Shown here: piece after piece, positions 9,377-47,719 of the stretch | Position numbering within the stretch: the first letter of the stretch is position 1 | Layout: each line of letters starts with the position of its first letter | Assembly (NCBI RefSeq): GCF_001625215.2 | Contig: NC_030384.2 | Location: 24,478,527 to 24,542,526, forward strand | From: Daucus carota subsp. sativus | Taxonomy: Eukaryota > Streptophyta > Magnoliopsida > Apiales > Apiaceae | Direction: 5' to 3' | Length of the DNA stretch: 64,000 nucleotides | Made by a program: the position numbers and the translations under genes | The notes under the pieces: generated by a model | The model's database searches: none | Told to the model about the DNA's origin: nothing | The model's input: the letters and a program-made list of their open reading frames with translations, nothing else

Positions 9377-9393
9377 TAAATAAACAATAAACT

Positions 9394-10093
9394 AAGGGTT
9401 TGCAGTTTTGAGAGTCGACTTCCAAAATTCTAGCCGCCACTTCTCCGCTCTTCATCCTTCATCCCTCTTTCTGATTAATCATCTTCGATCTTCCATCTTC
9501 TCTTATATTTATCAGTTTTTTCAATAAAACCAAGATCTAATCCTTTTGGGTGAGTTCTTGTTGAGTACCTTGTCATCAAGGTTGTGCCCATCTTTTTGGG
9601 ATGTTTGTGTTTGTTTTGATGTTTTTGTGTGTCTTGTTATGGGTTTCGGTAACGTTTTCAAGAAGGTGTTACATGATATTTTGGGTGATCCGTATGGCTT
9701 GTATCAAATATGGCATGGTGGTAAATATCGCAAGAGCTCACCTTTCACGACATAATATTGTTCATGTTTTTGGGTCATTTTTTGATCCAATATCAGTGGA
9801 TGTAACTGATAATTCTGAACATTGGGTTACAGATGCTGCTGCTTATGTGAAGGTCGATTGTGATGCTACTATGTTCACAACTGATGTAGGTTGGATTGTT
9901 CAAGATTTGATTGTAATTCTTTTTGGTTCAAAGAATTTAAATATTCTACTTGTTAAACGATCTGAAAACAAAGCGGCTATATGTTTAGCTCGTTTTTTGT
10001 TTCTTAATCAGGTTGTAATTGACAGTTTGAGGGTTTGTCTCGGCTGGGTTTCAATTATTTATTAAATTCTTCGCATTTCGTCAAAAAAAAAAA
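9394..10093 (+). mobile_element. Short poly(A) retroposon with LINE RNase H tail, copy 1
   Basis: A 700-bp unit ends in TC plus a run of A and is flanked by a perfect 16-bp direct repeat (AAATAAACAATAAACT at 9378-9393 and 10094-10109), the mark of target-primed reverse transcription. The 3' half encodes a degenerate RNase H-like tail (KVDCDATMF, then LLVKRSENKAAICLARF and CLGWVS), as found at the C-terminus of plant L1-type LINEs. The 5' part looks like an mRNA leader with pyrimidine-rich sequence. It is about 99% identical to the copy at 46905-47601, differing at only six positions I could find. No reverse transcriptase is present, so it must move in trans. Confidence 0.82.
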
Positions 10094-10485
10094 AAATAAA
10101 CAATAAACTGGGTGACGAAAAAATCTATTTTCCCTCAAAATAATTATCAGCAATACTTTCAGAACTTTCACTTGTGACCGGAGCAAATCGAATGGGCCTA
10201 AAGTAGCCCATTTACACAGCCCAAGTAGCAAAATAGGCCCATAGTCCAAATAGCTGAGAAAGGCCTAATTGTCAACCTCTCAAGTCTCAACCTCAAGCAA
10301 AGCTTTCTCTTATCCTCCAATACATACACATTCATATATCTCTATCCATCCCACTGTTCCCCCTCCTTCATCTCTATCTATCTATCTAGATTCTTTTTTA
10401 TTCAAAGATTCATTCTTTTTACAGACACACCCACATGTTTATTTCTATGTATTTTAACATATGTATGTAAGAAGATACCAGAAGC

Positions 10486-17626: not shown

Positions 17627-18334
17627 ATGCTTTCCGACGACAAGTCCGCGAACAGGCCTTCTGTGAAACGCAAACTCGCCATGGGCTCGCCGCGATCAAC
17701 TCGGAAGAAGGTTTGTTACGATGAGACCTCTACTCGCATCTGGAGCGACGAAGACGTGCTCGTGCTTCTCCAATCCATCCTCGACTATCGCATCGCTTAT
17801 AACAAGGAGCCTAACGCTGATTACTCGGCGTTTCTTCATTTTGTGAAGGATAAGCTTAATATGAATGACTTGTCCGTGAGACAATTGGGCGGTAAGGTTC
17901 GAAAGCTCAAGTATAGATACTCTGAGTCTTTGAAGAAAGGAGAGAAAGACGTGGGTGATGACAAGGTGTTTGAGCTTTTGCACAAGGTTTGGGGGAGGAC
18001 TAATGACAAGGATGAGGTTGTTGTAACTGAAAATGAGGGGGATGAGGTTGTTGTAACTGAAAATGAGGGGAAGGGGGAGGATCAGGGTTCGGGTTTCGAG
18101 GAGACTTACCCGTACTTGAGTGAGGCGTGGGGGTCTAAATTTGATTTACCGCAGCATTTGAAGGAGCTTGCAGTTGCCAATTTTATGATGATTGGAGGTG
18201 AAAAGCTGAGGGCATTGGAATGTGAGTGGAAGGGAGTGTCTGTCGAGGAGTTGAAGTTGGATGTCAAGAAGCTGGAATGGCGGGCCAAGGTTGTGAAAGC
18301 GGTGTTGGATGAGATGGAAGGTTCGGGGGATTGA
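17627..18334 (+). CDS. GeBP/STOREKEEPER-family (DUF573) transcription regulator
   Basis: Single-exon gene of 235 residues. Family members bind DNA with a plant-specific domain and act, for example, in trichome gene expression and cytokinin response (Arabidopsis GeBP). The DUF573 domain covers roughly residues 36-125: IWSDEDVLVLLQSILDY, then PNADYSAFLHFVK, the helix VRQLGGKVRKLKYRY and VFELLHKVWG. A 10-residue acidic unit (DEVVVTENEG) occurs twice in direct tandem at the linker. The C-terminus (EWKGVSVEELKLDVKKLEWR) has the heptad leucines typical of the family. The N-terminus is basic (KRK, RKK), possibly a nuclear signal. The ATG chosen is the first in frame and gives a complete domain. Intronless structure is normal for this family. 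Which paralogue this is cannot be told. Confidence 0.9.
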   Translation: MLSDDKSANRPSVKRKLAMGSPRSTRKKVCYDETSTRIWSDEDVLVLLQSILDYRIAYNKEPNADYSAFLHFVKDKLNMNDLSVRQLGGKVRKLKYRYSESLKKGEKDVGDDKVFELLHKVWGRTNDKDEVVVTENEGDEVVVTENEGKGEDQGSGFEETYPYLSEAWGSKFDLPQHLKELAVANFMMIGGEKLRALECEWKGVSVEELKLDVKKLEWRAKVVKAVLDEMEGSGD

Positions 18335-25435: not shown

Positions 25436-25712
25436 ACGGAAAGAGGATCCAACATGTTAGACTATTTTTTTAGCCGTGTTGTGGAAAATGCATAGAAATT
25501 CACATAAGGGTCCTATTTCACCAACTGAAATAATACCTTGTACAGGCAGGCACTATATAAATTTATTAACTCAAGAACAGAAAACCAAAACAAAAATTCC
25601 AGTGAACATTGGTTTTTGTAAGAAAAATTTCTATTGCCTGTTGTTGAGTCACTGAATTTAGTCTTGCTTTCATTTGGCTATTCTACAAGTCACTGAATCG
25701 GAAAAGACAGCT

Positions 25713-26699
25713 ATGGCTGAGATACTAGTATCAGTGATTGCAGAACCCATAGTGGGGAAAGTCATTGATCTTGCAGCTTCCTTCATAGCAAGTCAGATTG
25801 ATCTGCTGCGGCATCTCAAAGGTGATGTAGGGAAGCTCAAAAGTAAGCTGACCATGATTCATAATGTGCTGAAAGATGCTGAGGAGAAGCAAACAGGGTC
25901 TCATCAGCTGAGAGATTGGCTCCAAAAGCTTCAAGAAGCATCTTATGATGCAGAGGACTTGCTGGAAATGTTTGAAACTGAAGCCCTGTTGTTGCAGAAG
26001 AAAAAGGAGGCAACAAAGCTGCCACTTATTCCCAGGGAAGCTTTCTGGAAACATAGTTCTGCAGGAAAGATCAAGAAGCTTTTATCAAGGTTGGAAGATA
26101 TTGCAAGAGAGAAAAATGACTTCGGCCTTGAAAATATTCATGCTGATGTTCCTTCTTATGATAGAACAACGACTTCGTTTGTGAACGAAACTGATGTTGT
26201 TGGTAGAGAAGAGGACATGAAAAAAATCAGTGACATGCTTTTATCTGAGGAACTCAACAGCCAAGGAGGAATATCCGTGATTCCCATAATTGCAATGGGA
26301 GGGATGGGGAAGACAACTCTTGCTCAATCAATCTACAACAATGAAACAATTCAAAGCCATTTTAAGGTTGTGATGTGGGCGTGTGTTGGCTACAAGTTTG
26401 ACATTAAAAGCGTACTAAAAGAGATGATAGAAACTCATTCCAAGATGAAGGTAGCTGAATTAGATGAGTTACCTCTTCACCTGTTGGAGTCTCGCTTGCT
26501 TAATGTTATCTCAACAAATTGCATTCTGGTAGTTTTAGATGATGTCTGGTCTGTGAATTACGATGACTATGAGAAGCTAGAGAGGCTGCTAAAAAGTGCA
26601 GGGAAAGGTTCTAGAGTTTTGATTACAAGTCGAGACAGTGGGGTTTTCTCTCTCAACTCTTCACAACCTGATTTTAAGATGCCAAGTAGGAGATCGTGA
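25713..26699 (+). pseudogene. Truncated CC-NB-ARC resistance protein (RGA-like CNL)
   Basis: The reading frame encodes 328 residues of a coiled-coil NLR, an intracellular immune receptor class. The coiled coil spans residues 1-~130, with the EDVID-like motif DAEDLLEMFE near 79-88. NB-ARC follows: VGREEDMKKI (163-172), P-loop GGMGKTT (196-202), RNBS-A (FKVVMWACVGYKFD), kinase-2 LVVLDDVW (272-279) and RNBS-B GSRVLITSR (299-307). It then leaves homology and stops about 20 residues later. GLPL, MHD and all LRRs are missing. The break coincides with the start of an oppositely oriented NB-ARC scrap (26700-26951). Loss of ARC2 and LRR argues against a normal receptor, but the open frame is long and clean. 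It could be expressed as a short CC-NB protein, or simply be a young truncation. Confidence 0.82.
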
Positions 26700-37962: not shown

Positions 37963-38254
37963 GGTAACGGTCCACAGCAGCCGGCTGCTGTGGACGCGTT
38001 AAACAACACCCAGTTTTTGGGCCGTTGGATGCATATCCAGCGGCCAGGATCATACTACAATTTTAATATGTCCAGCGCTTTTTTAGCGCCGTCCAGCGCT
38101 TTTTTAGCGCTGGACGGGGGAATCCCTGTCCAGCGCTAAAAAACCGCTGGACACATTAAAGTTTTAATAAGATCCTGGCCGCTGGATATGCATCCAACGG
38201 CCAGGAAATGGGCTGTTGGTTAACCAGGCCGTATGCCAGGGACCTGGTCCCAAG
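37963..38254. mobile_element. Fold-back element with strong hairpin
   Basis: GGGCCGTTGGATGCATATCC / GGATATGCATCCAACGGCC and CAGCGGCCAGGATC / GATCCTGGCCGCTG form long inverted arms. Between them are nested copies of TCCAGCGCTTTTTTAGCGC and its inverse. The outer ends (GGTAACGGTCC, GGGACCTGGTCCC) are weaker. It is non-coding and lies about 170 bp upstream of the LHP1 start codon. Its transposon class is not settled, since no clear target duplication was seen. Confidence 0.72.
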
Positions 38255-38423: not shown

Positions 38424-41400
38424 ATGAACACCACTGAATCCATCAATTCCGGCGTGGCGGCGCCGGAAATCGACGAAATTAGAAGCGAAATCGACGATGA
38501 CGAGAGAGAAAATGAAGATATTGACAATGAATTTGGTGAGTTGAACTCACAGGATGGAGAAGAAGACGATGAAGAAGCTGAACTAAGCCCTAAGCTTGCT
38601 GAAGGCTTCTACGAAATCGAAACTGTTCGTCGAAAGCGAGTTCGAAAGGTGCTTTATATAATTATGTATAGTTAGTTCTTTAGTTGTTCTATAACAAAAT
38701 TCTAAGATTATCAAAAAGTGCAGAACAATTGTTCTCGCGTGTTTTTAAAATAAAACTGTTCTCCACTGAACGCGAGCGAGCTTAGTGTTTATATATACGT
38801 GTGTTATTATGTCACTGTTTGCTAAAATTGGGGCTTTTTTGTTTATGTGGCATGGAAATTTGACAAATGCTGGTTATTAAAGGGGCAAGTTCAGTATCTA
38901 ATTAAGTGGTAAGTGATTCAAGATTTGTTTTTTATTCTATTCGTGTTATTATTACTAGTGTTTTAGTTGCCTAATTGGAAGTGTGTTTTTGTTATTAAAT
39001 TTTTTTCTTTTTTTGGAGTGGTTTAACAGTTAAGGTATATTTATTGATGTGTTTAATGATGGTGTTTGATTATGGTGCTAAGATTTATGTGCTGTTTGTG
39101 ATAGGCGGGGATGGCCGGAGACGGCGAACACTTGGGAGCCGTATGAGAATCTTGTATCGTGTTTCGATGTTATTGAAGCATTTGAAGAGGGGTATTTTTT
39201 TTGTGTTGCTTATGTTGATTTCGGAGAATGTGGTTGGGATGGTTTTGATTTATTTATATTTTGATTTTTTTGGTGTGTTTTGATTGAAGCTTGCGGTCAG
39301 GGAAGCATAGATCACGCAAGCGTAAACGGAGGTCTACTGGCTTGGTGCCTCAAGGTAAGAAGAAGACACAGGGTACTCCTGGTGCGTCTACTTCTAGTCC
39401 AGTAACTGCTGGGAAGGTTAAGTTTGATGAGGGAAACTTTATCATTCCTTTTGTTGGTGATGTGAGTCACGAAGATGGTGGTTGGTCGGAAATGGGAGGT
39501 ATCATTAATGATGATGCAATAGGGCAAGGTAATGGAAATGGATCTGTTGGCATTCCTCCACATGTTGAAGAAGAGAAAGATGGGTATGAAAAGGATGTAA
39601 ACGTTGGTGAATCTACTGGCACACAATTGACCAATAGGGGCTCAGGTTTGTTGGACATAAATAATCTGGAGTCGCAAATTTGCTTTGAAAATGGACATCA
39701 AAGAGATGACAGTGAGGGACTAGACCAAGCTAACGTCCGCCTGAGGAAAAGAAGGAAGGCTGCATCTGTGAAAAGGTTTAGCCAAGAACAAACCGCACAA
39801 CCCGCACTTATAACAAATTATGCTGCAATAGATCAAGGAAATGGAAAGAAATCTGTTGATATTCGTCAACAAGTTGATGAGGGAAGAAATCACTATGACA
39901 TGGATGTAAACCATGGTGAATATGCTGGCACACCATTGATTAATTGGAGCTCTAACAGGGTTGCCGTAGATATTTTGGAGTTGAAGACATCAGAGGCAGT
40001 TTGCTTTGAAAATGGACATCAAAAGTTTGATGGGGTGGGACAAGTCCAAGCTAACGTCCGCTTGAGGAAAAGAAGGAAGGTTGCATCTTTGGAACGGTTC
40101 AGCCCAGAACAAACTCCGCAAACCACACGTGTAACAAGTTATGCTACAATAGAGCAAGGAAATGGAAATAAATCTGTTGATATTCCTCTACAAGTTGAAG
40201 AAGGAAGAGATAATTATGAAATGGATGTAAACCCTGGTGAATATGCTGGCACAACATTGATTAATTGGGGCTCAGGTAGGATTGGCGTAGATGTTTTGGA
40301 GTCGAATACTTCAGAAACAATTTGCTTTGAAAAAGGACATCAGAAGGTTAATGGGGAGGGATTAGTTCAAGCCAATGGCCGCTTGAGAAATAGAAGGAAG
40401 GCTACATCTGTTAAAAGGTTTAGCCAAGAACAAACCCCGCGTGTAACATATTATGCTGCAACAGGGCAAGGAAATGGAAATGAATCCATTGATATTCCTC
40501 TACAAGTTGAAGGAAAAGATCACTATGAAATGGATGTAAACCCTGGTGGATATGCTGGCACCCCAGTGATCAATGGGGACTCGAGCAGGATGGCAGCAGA
40601 TATTTTGGAGTCAAGGACATCAGAAGCATTTTTCTTTGAAAATGGACATCAAAAGGTTGACGGGGAGGGACTAGTTCAAGCTAATGGCCGCTTGAGGAAT
40701 AGAAGGAAGGCTGCGTCTGTGAAACGGTTTAACCAAGAACAAACCCCGTGTGTAACAAATTATGCTGCACAAGATCTGACAACAAAAAACACTCGTGCTG
40801 GTGGTATAGCTGGACAAAACTGGGATAAAAATTCTGTTCACAGGAGCACGTCTGACAATAGTGCAGATACATTTTCTATCACCGAGATTATCAAGCCAAT
40901 AAGCTTTTCATCTTCAGGATCTATAGCGGACATCTTAGTGACCTTTATGGCCAAGAGGTTTGTGACTTACCTTTGACTTCAGAAAATTCTTTTCTTGTTC
41001 TAACTGGCCTAACAAGAATTTATTGAGCATCATTGATCTGTTAGGTGCTATGCGTTTAGAACATATATGGTGAAAAATGAAATTATGACATGCTTTAGCT
41101 TTACTTGATTACCTGTATCTTGTATTTCATTTCCATGAATCAGTGACACCTATAATATAAGAGCTACTCTTTCTAGAAATCTTGATATAACTTTGGAAGA
41201 AACGTTTGAAGTGTGCAAACAAGTTGAGTGTATGAAGTCAGGACATTGTCTTGGACTTTCCGTAGTCTCTGAAGTATGGGCACAACTGTGCTCCTTAATT
41301 TAGGATATGATATATTGGGGGACACATTGTCTTGGACTTTCCGTAGTCTCTGAAGTATGGGCATTAGTGGCCTTGTTCGCCACTCCAACTTTGTCTTCAA

Positions 41401-42572
41401 TGACGAAAGGGTTCTCTTGCAGGAACTCATCTCATTTTCGTGTTTTTTCTTTGGTTTCTTCTGCCTATTTATGTGGTAATTATGTGGTTGAGGGATTCAT
41501 GATCAGAGCAAAGGACAATTTTTTATGAATTATATAGTGATGCCAATGCCAAAGTGCTTGCACTACCGTGTAATATTCCTTCTCATATGTAGTGTACCTT
41601 GACTTTGCATCGTTAAGCTTCTGATTGAGAAATGCTATAGGTTGGCCTTCTTGGCTAAGGATCAGTCCAGTATATACATATAATAAGCTCTATTAGTATG
41701 GTTCCGTTATTTGGCCTGTATATTTTATTAAAAGGAATTCAAAACCAATCGATTTTTGTATAATGAAAACCAAAATCAAACTGAGAAAGAACCGTAAATT
41801 TCAGTTTGGCTGGTTTATTCAGTTTTGGGAAAAATCGCTTAGCCCTATAGGCTATGTCACATATAATGATATTCTGTTCAATACATTATGCACTGAGTGT
41901 CTGAGTGGCTATTTGGACTTCAGGAACATCGACAATTACTAAATCTTGTGTGTAAATGGTGGTTAGTGGTTACAAATAACTAATACGGAGAATGAACTGT
42001 ACCTTAGCAACAAACAAATTTTAATTGGTCTTTCAACTTAGCAGATTTTCCAATTATAGCTTCAAAAGAGGTTTGTGAATTTAAGTGTGATGGAAGCTGT
42101 TTAAGCTTAAGGATAAGTTGGATCTTTATTGATTAAGCTGTAAAACACCTCAAGTACTTTATTAGTTGCGTTACAACTTGTTTGGTACTCCATGGCTATT
42201 TGAACTTTCAGAAGATCTTGTCTCTTATATTCTTATGCAGTTCACTGGTATCCTGAGAGTAATATTTCCCAATTATAACTAATTTTGTGTTATTTGGCAT
42301 ACAGATCCGATGGAAAAGAAGTGATGGTTGATAATAAATACCTCAAGGCTAATTATCCTCTTCTGGTGATTACATCTCTACTAATATTTCATGTTTTGTT
42401 TCCTCTTTCATCTTGCTATATTTTTTAATTTAACATCTATGTTAATTTCTAAGACCTGTCCAATGATATGTCTATAATTTCATGCCAGTTGATCAATTAC
42501 TACGAGCAACATCTGAACTATAATGCTACAGCAGGACCGGACAGATCTGGGAGAGAATATTTGACCGGATAA
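38424..42572 (+). CDS. LHP1: LIKE HETEROCHROMATIN PROTEIN 1 (LHP1/TFL2) with expanded hinge, 6 exons
   Basis: LHP1 reads H3K27me3 through its chromodomain and works with Polycomb repressive complexes in the nucleus to silence flowering and identity genes. Exons: 38424-38648, 38883-38908, 39105-39191, 39290-40957, 42305-42365, 42489-42572; 2151 nt, 716 residues, every junction in phase. The N-terminus is acidic. The chromodomain (about 62-112) reads [14 protein letters not shown], then [20 protein letters not shown], with the aromatic-cage residues present. A basic NLS-like stretch follows ([11 protein letters not shown]). The chromoshadow domain (about 643-708) starts [10 protein letters not shown] and ends [17 protein letters not shown]. 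The usual plant protein is about 400-450 residues; the excess is four tandem hinge repeats (residues 190-606). Exon 4 is correspondingly 1668 nt. All six exons are open, so the gene seems functional. Confidence 0.94.
39519..40769 (+). repeat. Four in-frame ~310-nt repeats in the LHP1 hinge
   Basis: Units at 39519-39827, 39828-40148, 40149-40460 and 40461-40769 (309, 321, 312, 309 nt; 103, 107, 104 and 103 residues). Each starts with (I/T)xQGNGxxS, passes through NxGExxGTxLIN-like and CFENGHQK blocks and ends with the basic motif RLR(K/N)RRKAxSVKRF followed by a Q-E-Q-T linker. All lengths are multiples of three and there are no stops. Units 3 and 4 are the most alike. The basic block is the hinge motif that I recall occurring once in other LHP1 proteins. 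Confidence 0.93.
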
Positions 42573-46875: not shown

Positions 46876-47601
46876 AAACTAAAAGAAAACTTCAATAAAA
46901 AAATAAGGGTTTGCAGTTTTGAGAGTCGACTTCCAAAATTCTAGCCGCCACTTCTCCGCTCTTCATCCTTCATCCCTCTTTCTGATTAATCATCTTCGAT
47001 CTTCCATCTTCTCTTATATTTATCAGTTTTTTCAATAAAACCAAGATCTAATCCTTTTGGGTGAGTTCTTGTTGAGTACCTTGTCATCAAGGTTGTGCCC
47101 ATCTTTTTGGGATGTTTGTGTTTGTTTTGATGTTTTTGTGTGTCTTGTTATGGGTTTCGGTAACGTTTTCAAGAAGGTGTTACATGATATTTTGGGTGAT
47201 CCGTATGGCTTGTATCAAATATGGCATGGTGGTAAATATCGCAAGAGCTCACCTTTCACGACATAATATTGTTCATGTTTTGGGGTCATTTTTTGATCCA
47301 ATATCAGTGGATGTAACTGATAATTCTGAACATTGGGCTACAGATGCTGCTGCTTATGTGAAGGTCGATTGTGATGCTACTATGTTCACAACTGATGTAG
47401 GTTGGATTGTTCGAGATTTGATTGTAATTCTTATTGGTTCAAAGAATTTAAATATTCTACTTGTTAAACGATCTGAAAACAAAGCGGCTATATGTTTAGC
47501 TCGTTTTTTGTTTCTTAATCAGGTTGTAATTGACAGTTCGAGGGTTTGTCTCGGCTGGGTTTCAGTTATTTATTAAATTCTTCGCATTTCGTCAAAAAAA
47601 A
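46876..47601 (+). mobile_element. Short poly(A) retroposon with LINE RNase H tail, copy 2
   Basis: The unit from 46905 to the A tail is about 99% identical to 9394-10093. It is flanked by a perfect 17-bp duplication (AAAAGTAATACAATTCT at 46859-46875 and 47602-47618). Here 29 additional bases (46876-46904, A-rich) lie between the left duplication and the shared start, so the 5' ends of the two copies differ. Both keep a 154-codon open frame ending in LLVKRSENKAAICLARFLFL and GWVSVIY. Confidence 0.85.
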
Positions 47602-47719
47602 AAAAGTAATACAATTCTTAAATTTTTATATTATTTAATAATGATATGTTTAACAGAAACATGATTTAAAATAACTTTTATGCAATTAAAATATTAATTC
47701 ATTTCAAAATTTATAAAAT

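Follow-up and report, generated by a model that had tools for sequence, protein, structure and literature searches.

The LHP1 gene of the window

We analysed a window of 64,000 nucleotides that sits at 24.5 Mb of contig C4, and all coordinates are window positions unless another contig is named (Table 1). A spliced model placed an LHP1 gene of six exons on the forward strand. All five introns had GT..AG borders and every exon was open, which bears out the 716-residue product with open flanking exons given in a preliminary description of this DNA. The LHP1 identity proposed there was also supported. The protein matched the Pfam Chromo family (PF00385, 3.2e-16), and its top PDB match was the LHP1 chromodomain 8xag (1.1e-27), the next non-LHP1 chain being far behind (3.1e-13). 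The N-terminal chromodomain is thus of the LHP1 type. At the other end of the protein, the Chromo_shadow family (PF01393) was matched on residues 670-699 with 22.6 bits, barely above the cut-off of 22.4. Judged from the sequence, the gene most likely encodes an LHP1 family member in working form. By analogy with Arabidopsis LHP1 (PMC5749160), this protein would be expected to bind H3K27me3 and RNA and to act in Polycomb repression.

Table 1. Positions of the window LHP1 gene, its parts and its paralogs
Feature	Position	Strand	Basis and remarks
LHP1 gene, coding part	38424-42572	+	spliced model; six exons, 716 aa
LHP1 exons	38424-38648, 38883-38908, 39105-39191, 39290-40957, 42305-42365, 42489-42572	+	spliced model
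Chromodomain	38610-39189	+	residues 63-112, exons 1-3; PF00385 3.2e-16; PDB 8xag
First basic hinge cluster	39291-39332	+	14 residues, single copy; spliced model, charge scan
Possible optional intron within exon 4	39355-40917	+	1563 nt, in frame; approximate splice matrices
Hinge unit 1	39519-39827	+	103 aa; basic block QAN..EQT at 39726-39794
Hinge unit 2	39828-40148	+	107 aa; basic block at 40047-40115, with more changes than the other three
Hinge unit 3	40149-40460	+	104 aa; basic block at 40368-40436
Hinge unit 4	40461-40769	+	103 aa; basic block at 40677-40745
Chromoshadow domain and C-terminus	40875-42569	+	residues 642-716, exons 4-6; PF01393
C9 LHP1 paralog	C9:9474565-9477945	+	361 aa, 190-residue hinge, one block; SRRKKSAVVKRF
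C7 LHP1 paralog	C7:26672820-26679953	-	534 aa, 348-residue hinge, one block; RLGSRKRKPSSVKRF

Several other features were seen in the window. A MITE-like foldback element lies at 37998-38224, some 200 bases before the start codon of the LHP1 gene; its 104-nt arms are 83% complementary with 19 nt between them, and it proved much more stable than shuffled sequence (z -17.4). Intron 4 of the LHP1 gene holds an exact 40-nt duplication (41243-41282 and 41324-41363). Further away, a direct repeat of 712 nt (9383-10094 and 46894-47605, 98.7% identical) carries a 154-codon open frame in each copy, and the first copy, when scanned, matched no Pfam family. A GeBP-like DNA-binding gene at 17627-18334 (PF04504, 3.4e-17) contains an in-frame 30-nt tandem duplication at 18002-18070, and an open frame at 25674-26699 has Rx_N and NB-ARC domains and is part of a resistance-type NLR gene.

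Four tandem units in the hinge

The hinge between the two domains of the window protein is 529 residues long. The preliminary description had placed four in-frame tandem repeats in it, at 39519-40769, and we recovered them by Tandem Repeats Finder, by a repeat search and by cutting exon 4 in its frame, in which all units were, as claimed, multiples of three without a stop. Tandem Repeats Finder reported a single array, from 39677 to 40746, with 3.4 copies of period 321; its score of 1400 topped the 29 rows. The ungapped repeat search spaced the copies by 309, 321 and 312 nt. Self-alignment of the array reached a little beyond its edges, to 39507 and 40776. Across the six pairs of units, identity was 76-86% at the DNA level and 53-75% at the protein level, with length differences of only 3, 9 and 12 nt.

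In each unit, a spacer that is polar and in part acidic precedes a single conserved basic block. The multiplication of the basic hinge module that had been proposed holds for one of the two basic clusters, present four times; the cluster beside the chromodomain has remained in single copy. The blocks are imperfect (RNRRK in units 3 and 4, LERF in unit 2) and, as far as their sequences tell, are decaying in part. A gain in basic charge was not found: 69 K/R stand against 69 D/E in the hinge, a net charge of 0, because every unit carries its own acidic residues.

A folded unit was considered and rejected, since AlphaFold gave one unit a mean pLDDT of 44.6 with one weak helix at residues 69-88. 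The unit is thus predicted to be disordered; as the alignment supplied had four rows only, this is weak evidence of disorder.

Two LHP1 paralogs in the same genome

The comparison set was the window's own assembly (441,086,747 bases in 11 contigs). It contained two further complete LHP1 genes, on C9 and C7, both with the six-exon layout of the window gene. Three LHP1 genes lie inside the angiosperm range, which is mostly one and 2-4 after recent genome duplication (PMC4397884). One copy of the basic block as the usual state, another claim of the preliminary description, agreed with both complete paralogs and with a survey of plant LHP1 (PMC4397884).

The nearest relative found was C7, with 88% identity to the window protein in the chromodomain and 89% in the chromoshadow domain (64% for the latter with C9). 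Between the window and C7 genes dN/dS was 0.05 in the chromodomain and 0.04 in the chromoshadow domain, values that are approximate as dS there exceeds 1. Both domains are strongly constrained, and therefore both genes look functional. Over the 276 codons outside the array dN was 0.187 and dS 0.92 (bootstrap 0.67-1.34).

The hinges of the three proteins were compared by charge. When a basic cluster was defined as 15 residues with a net charge of +5 or more, the window gene had five, and C7 and C9 two each. The hinge K/R content per 100 residues was 13.0 in the window protein, 11.2 in C7 and 13.7 in C9, and the net charges were 0, -18 and 0, respectively, so that the window hinge retains the charge density and neutrality of C9 across 2.8 times the length. 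In C7 we observed an array of 18-residue repeats immediately preceding the single block (7.5 copies of 54 nt by Tandem Repeats Finder). Cutting by hand gave eight repeats, six of them net negative and two neutral. By eye, this repeat resembles a 16-residue stretch that is present once in each window unit. Its pN/pS was 0.92 (CI 0.67-1.35), with no detectable constraint. The two sisters thus enlarged different parts of one hinge, and, since the C7 hinge became longer with a single block, hinge growth here need not imply extra basic modules.

Elsewhere on C7 (29,446,955-29,579,814), LHP1 exon 5 was matched six more times in a cluster (L013-L018), in some cases together with exon 6. Within the 5-9.5 kb around these matches, no chromodomain or hinge match was seen at E 1e-4, and from their sequences they look like copied LHP1 gene fragments.

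Selection on the units

Neutral drift was simulated in 20,000 runs that scattered the 130 departures from the majority sequence randomly. On average 4.8 stops were expected and 0.73% of runs had none (P 0.007), while the real array has none. Together with the dN/dS of the basic block given below, this supports the earlier suggestion of selection for the frame.

Uniform constraint across the units was not seen. For whole units (107 codon columns) mean dN/dS was 0.64 (95% CI 0.40-1.01, P 0.027), and only one of the six pairs (U3-U4) was individually below 1 at P<0.05. The dN/dS comparison between units gave a divided answer: the 23-codon basic block was under purifying selection (0.21, CI 0.17-0.27, P 0.003; four of six pairs at P<0.05 singly), whereas the spacer, the remaining 84 codon columns, was near neutral and not distinguishable from 1 (0.82, CI 0.50-1.34, P 0.19). 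The limits of the block were chosen after inspection of the alignment. It had the lowest pN among all 85 windows of equal size; a strict 14-codon core came third from the bottom among windows of its length, with 2.4% of random sets of columns matching it. At the sequence level, then, purifying selection between copies is acting on the basic block and none is detectable on the spacer, so that each duplicated copy seems to have retained its block, the spacers drifting in frame. The constraint on the block could come solely from nuclear import.

Age and origin of the array

The dS between units was 0.26-0.36, below the paralog value outside the array, and the window units clustered separately from those of C7 and C9 with a support of 91. 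These two results disfavour an array that predates the C4/C7 split, and the array most likely arose on the lineage of the window gene after it diverged from its C7 sister. At assumed rates of 5e-9 to 1.5e-8, the units would be 9-36 million years old. Two points blur the dating: the units differ from the C7 unit by a dS of only 0.41-0.53, and gene conversion between units could make the array look young. In an alignment read by eye, the parts most like the C7 unit were the start of unit 1 and the end of unit 4, which fits the expectation that the outer ends are the old flanks. The trees fixed no order of duplication (supports of 69-72 with C9 and 41-57 without it).

Splice-like sites around the array

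An exitron is an exon-internal intron, marked by strong splice sites in a coding exon, a length that is a multiple of three and the lack of a stop. A donor-like site at 39355 (score 11.1) and an acceptor-like site at 40918 (9.6) were the strongest within exon 4. They outscored the gene's five real donors (5.9-9.9) and five real acceptors (4.9-8.3), and removal of the sequence between them would be in frame, without a stop, and would take out all four units. None of 500 shuffles contained a pair of this strength that was in frame and separated by over 1200 nt; singly, a comparable donor was present in 30 of them and a comparable acceptor in 149. A second splice-like pair (junction 39528/40465) would remove 936 nt in frame. 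Inspection by eye of the aligned places in C7 and C9 showed neither site of the first pair. A hinge-poor isoform of the window LHP1 is therefore possible from these sequences. We treat the sites as a lead only, because the matrices were approximate and the 39355/40918 pair was selected post hoc. The GC content of exon 4 was 0.43, against 0.27-0.35 across the five introns; this, the absence of stops and the constraint on the blocks disfavour an array that is wholly intronic.

Interpretation of the four-unit hinge

The reading that we prefer, with a probability of about one half, is that the window gene is a functional LHP1 paralog whose hinge module was tandemly duplicated to four, the blocks acting as a multivalent nucleic-acid tether. 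The module of spacer and basic block would have been duplicated in tandem, most likely after the C7 split. By analogy with Arabidopsis LHP1, four blocks on spacers of about 80 residues would then form a nucleic-acid-binding tether that links the chromodomain, the reader of H3K27me3, to the dimerising chromoshadow domain, and multivalency would raise avidity and reach with the net charge unraised. The four constrained blocks, the long spacers and the unchanged charge density fit a multivalent tether. On the same analogy, the four-module hinge may offer RNA or chromatin contacts, and the extra modules might affect valency and condensates. Several observations speak against the tether: dN/dS over whole units has an upper confidence limit above 1, with a single significant pair; in the C7 sister the hinge became longer through a neutral-looking repeat, with no gain of blocks; and the blocks are partly decaying and were delimited after alignment.

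The main rival we hold to be a serious though somewhat less probable account. Hinge length may have drifted in a tolerated manner, in a disordered, repeat-prone and nearly neutral linker where in-frame duplications build up since purging hits only those out of frame; the blocks would then be redundant nuclear localisation signals. The near-neutral spacer agrees with this account, and nuclear localisation signals have been matched to the second conserved motif of the plant LHP1 middle region (PMC4397884). It is strengthened by the neutral-looking C7 array, through which that hinge grew separately. Redundant copies ought, however, to lose constraint, and the blocks have not; the charge density and neutrality of the hinge were also preserved. 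A further reading, in which the two sister Polycomb readers diverged through their hinges, is unlikely. The window protein would have multiplied the basic RNA-contact module fourfold with a neutral hinge, C7 would have multiplied the linker and become net acidic, and protein dosage or optional splicing of the array would tune Polycomb spreading or condensates.

Quite unlikely in our judgement is that an exitron-like optional intron yields a main or second product that lacks the hinge units, which would leave the number of units of little weight. The high scores of the flanking pair, its in-frame 1563 nt, its rarity in shuffles and its absence from both paralogs speak for such an intron, but the approximate matrices, the post hoc choice and the frequency of single sites weaken the case, exon 4 does not have the GC of the introns, and skipping would also delete the start of the chromoshadow domain. 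The constraint on the blocks and the lack of stops further point to at least some translation of the units. An assembly artefact or a pseudogene is very improbable. Assemblies are known to go wrong at tandem arrays, but these units differ at 14-24% of bases and are therefore not false copies of one unit, which argues against a false duplication, and the window lies on a long contig of an assembly that places 441 Mb in 11 contigs. A pseudogene is opposed by the open exons with GT..AG introns and the strong constraint on both domains.

Comparison with known LHP1 and HP1 proteins

Among the PMC matches listed, judged by title and the start of the abstract, we found no LHP1 with hinge repeats; subscription papers lie mostly outside that set. 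We also searched viral and prokaryotic collections. The whole window protein matched 5 stretches of viral contigs by pattern and the unit alignment 120 stretches of prokaryotic genome contigs, none of which was confirmed, and the chromodomain DNA pattern gave no match in either collection. Given the nature of these collections, the negatives carry no information on plants.

In Arabidopsis LHP1, RNA binding in vitro (Kd about 200 nM, against a value two orders of magnitude weaker for the chromodomain with H3K27me3) depends on the K/R residues of the hinge, as do Polycomb target association and nuclear foci (PMC5749160). The HP1 hinges of S. pombe and of mammals have likewise been linked to RNA binding (told in PMC5749160). 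According to Berke and Snel, plant LHP1 has about 200 extra residues between the domains relative to its animal relatives, and this middle region holds two conserved motifs: the first (EYDPTLNELRG) in eudicots, and the second (RRKSGSV core) in all plants (PMC4397884). We observed the second motif in units 1, 3 and 4 (scores of 24, 22 and 24, above the 95% level of 20 set by shuffles), while unit 2 scored 18, under that level. For the first motif, the best score in the window protein, units included, was 16, equal to the shuffle median; the motif is typical of eudicot LHP1 and does not define the family.

The window protein thus resembles plant LHP1/TFL2 (Arabidopsis LHP1 and C9) in its chromodomain, basic-cluster hinge, chromoshadow domain and RRKSGSV-core motif (PMC4397884). 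It differs in having four modules instead of one and a hinge of 529 residues against 190 in C9, and every one of the four units has A or V in place of the first serine of the motif (RRKS). With the C7 paralog it shares the six exons, domains that are 88% and 89% identical, and a hinge enlarged by a tandem array, but C7 has one block, about eight 18-residue copies ahead of it and a hinge charge of -18. Animal and fungal HP1 proteins likewise have a chromodomain, a disordered hinge and a chromoshadow domain; plant LHP1 is about 200 residues longer between the domains (PMC4397884), and the window protein has 529 there in all, with an internal array.

This genome supplies, on a shared domain frame, an LHP1 with one module, one with one module and an acidic linker array, and one with four modules. 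In Arabidopsis LHP1, Berry et al. removed the hinge charge, and they speculated about a phase-separated compartment formed by the hinge (PMC5749160); the natural set is the reverse of that charge removal. A comparison of the three proteins could tell the effect of module number apart from those of hinge length and net charge.
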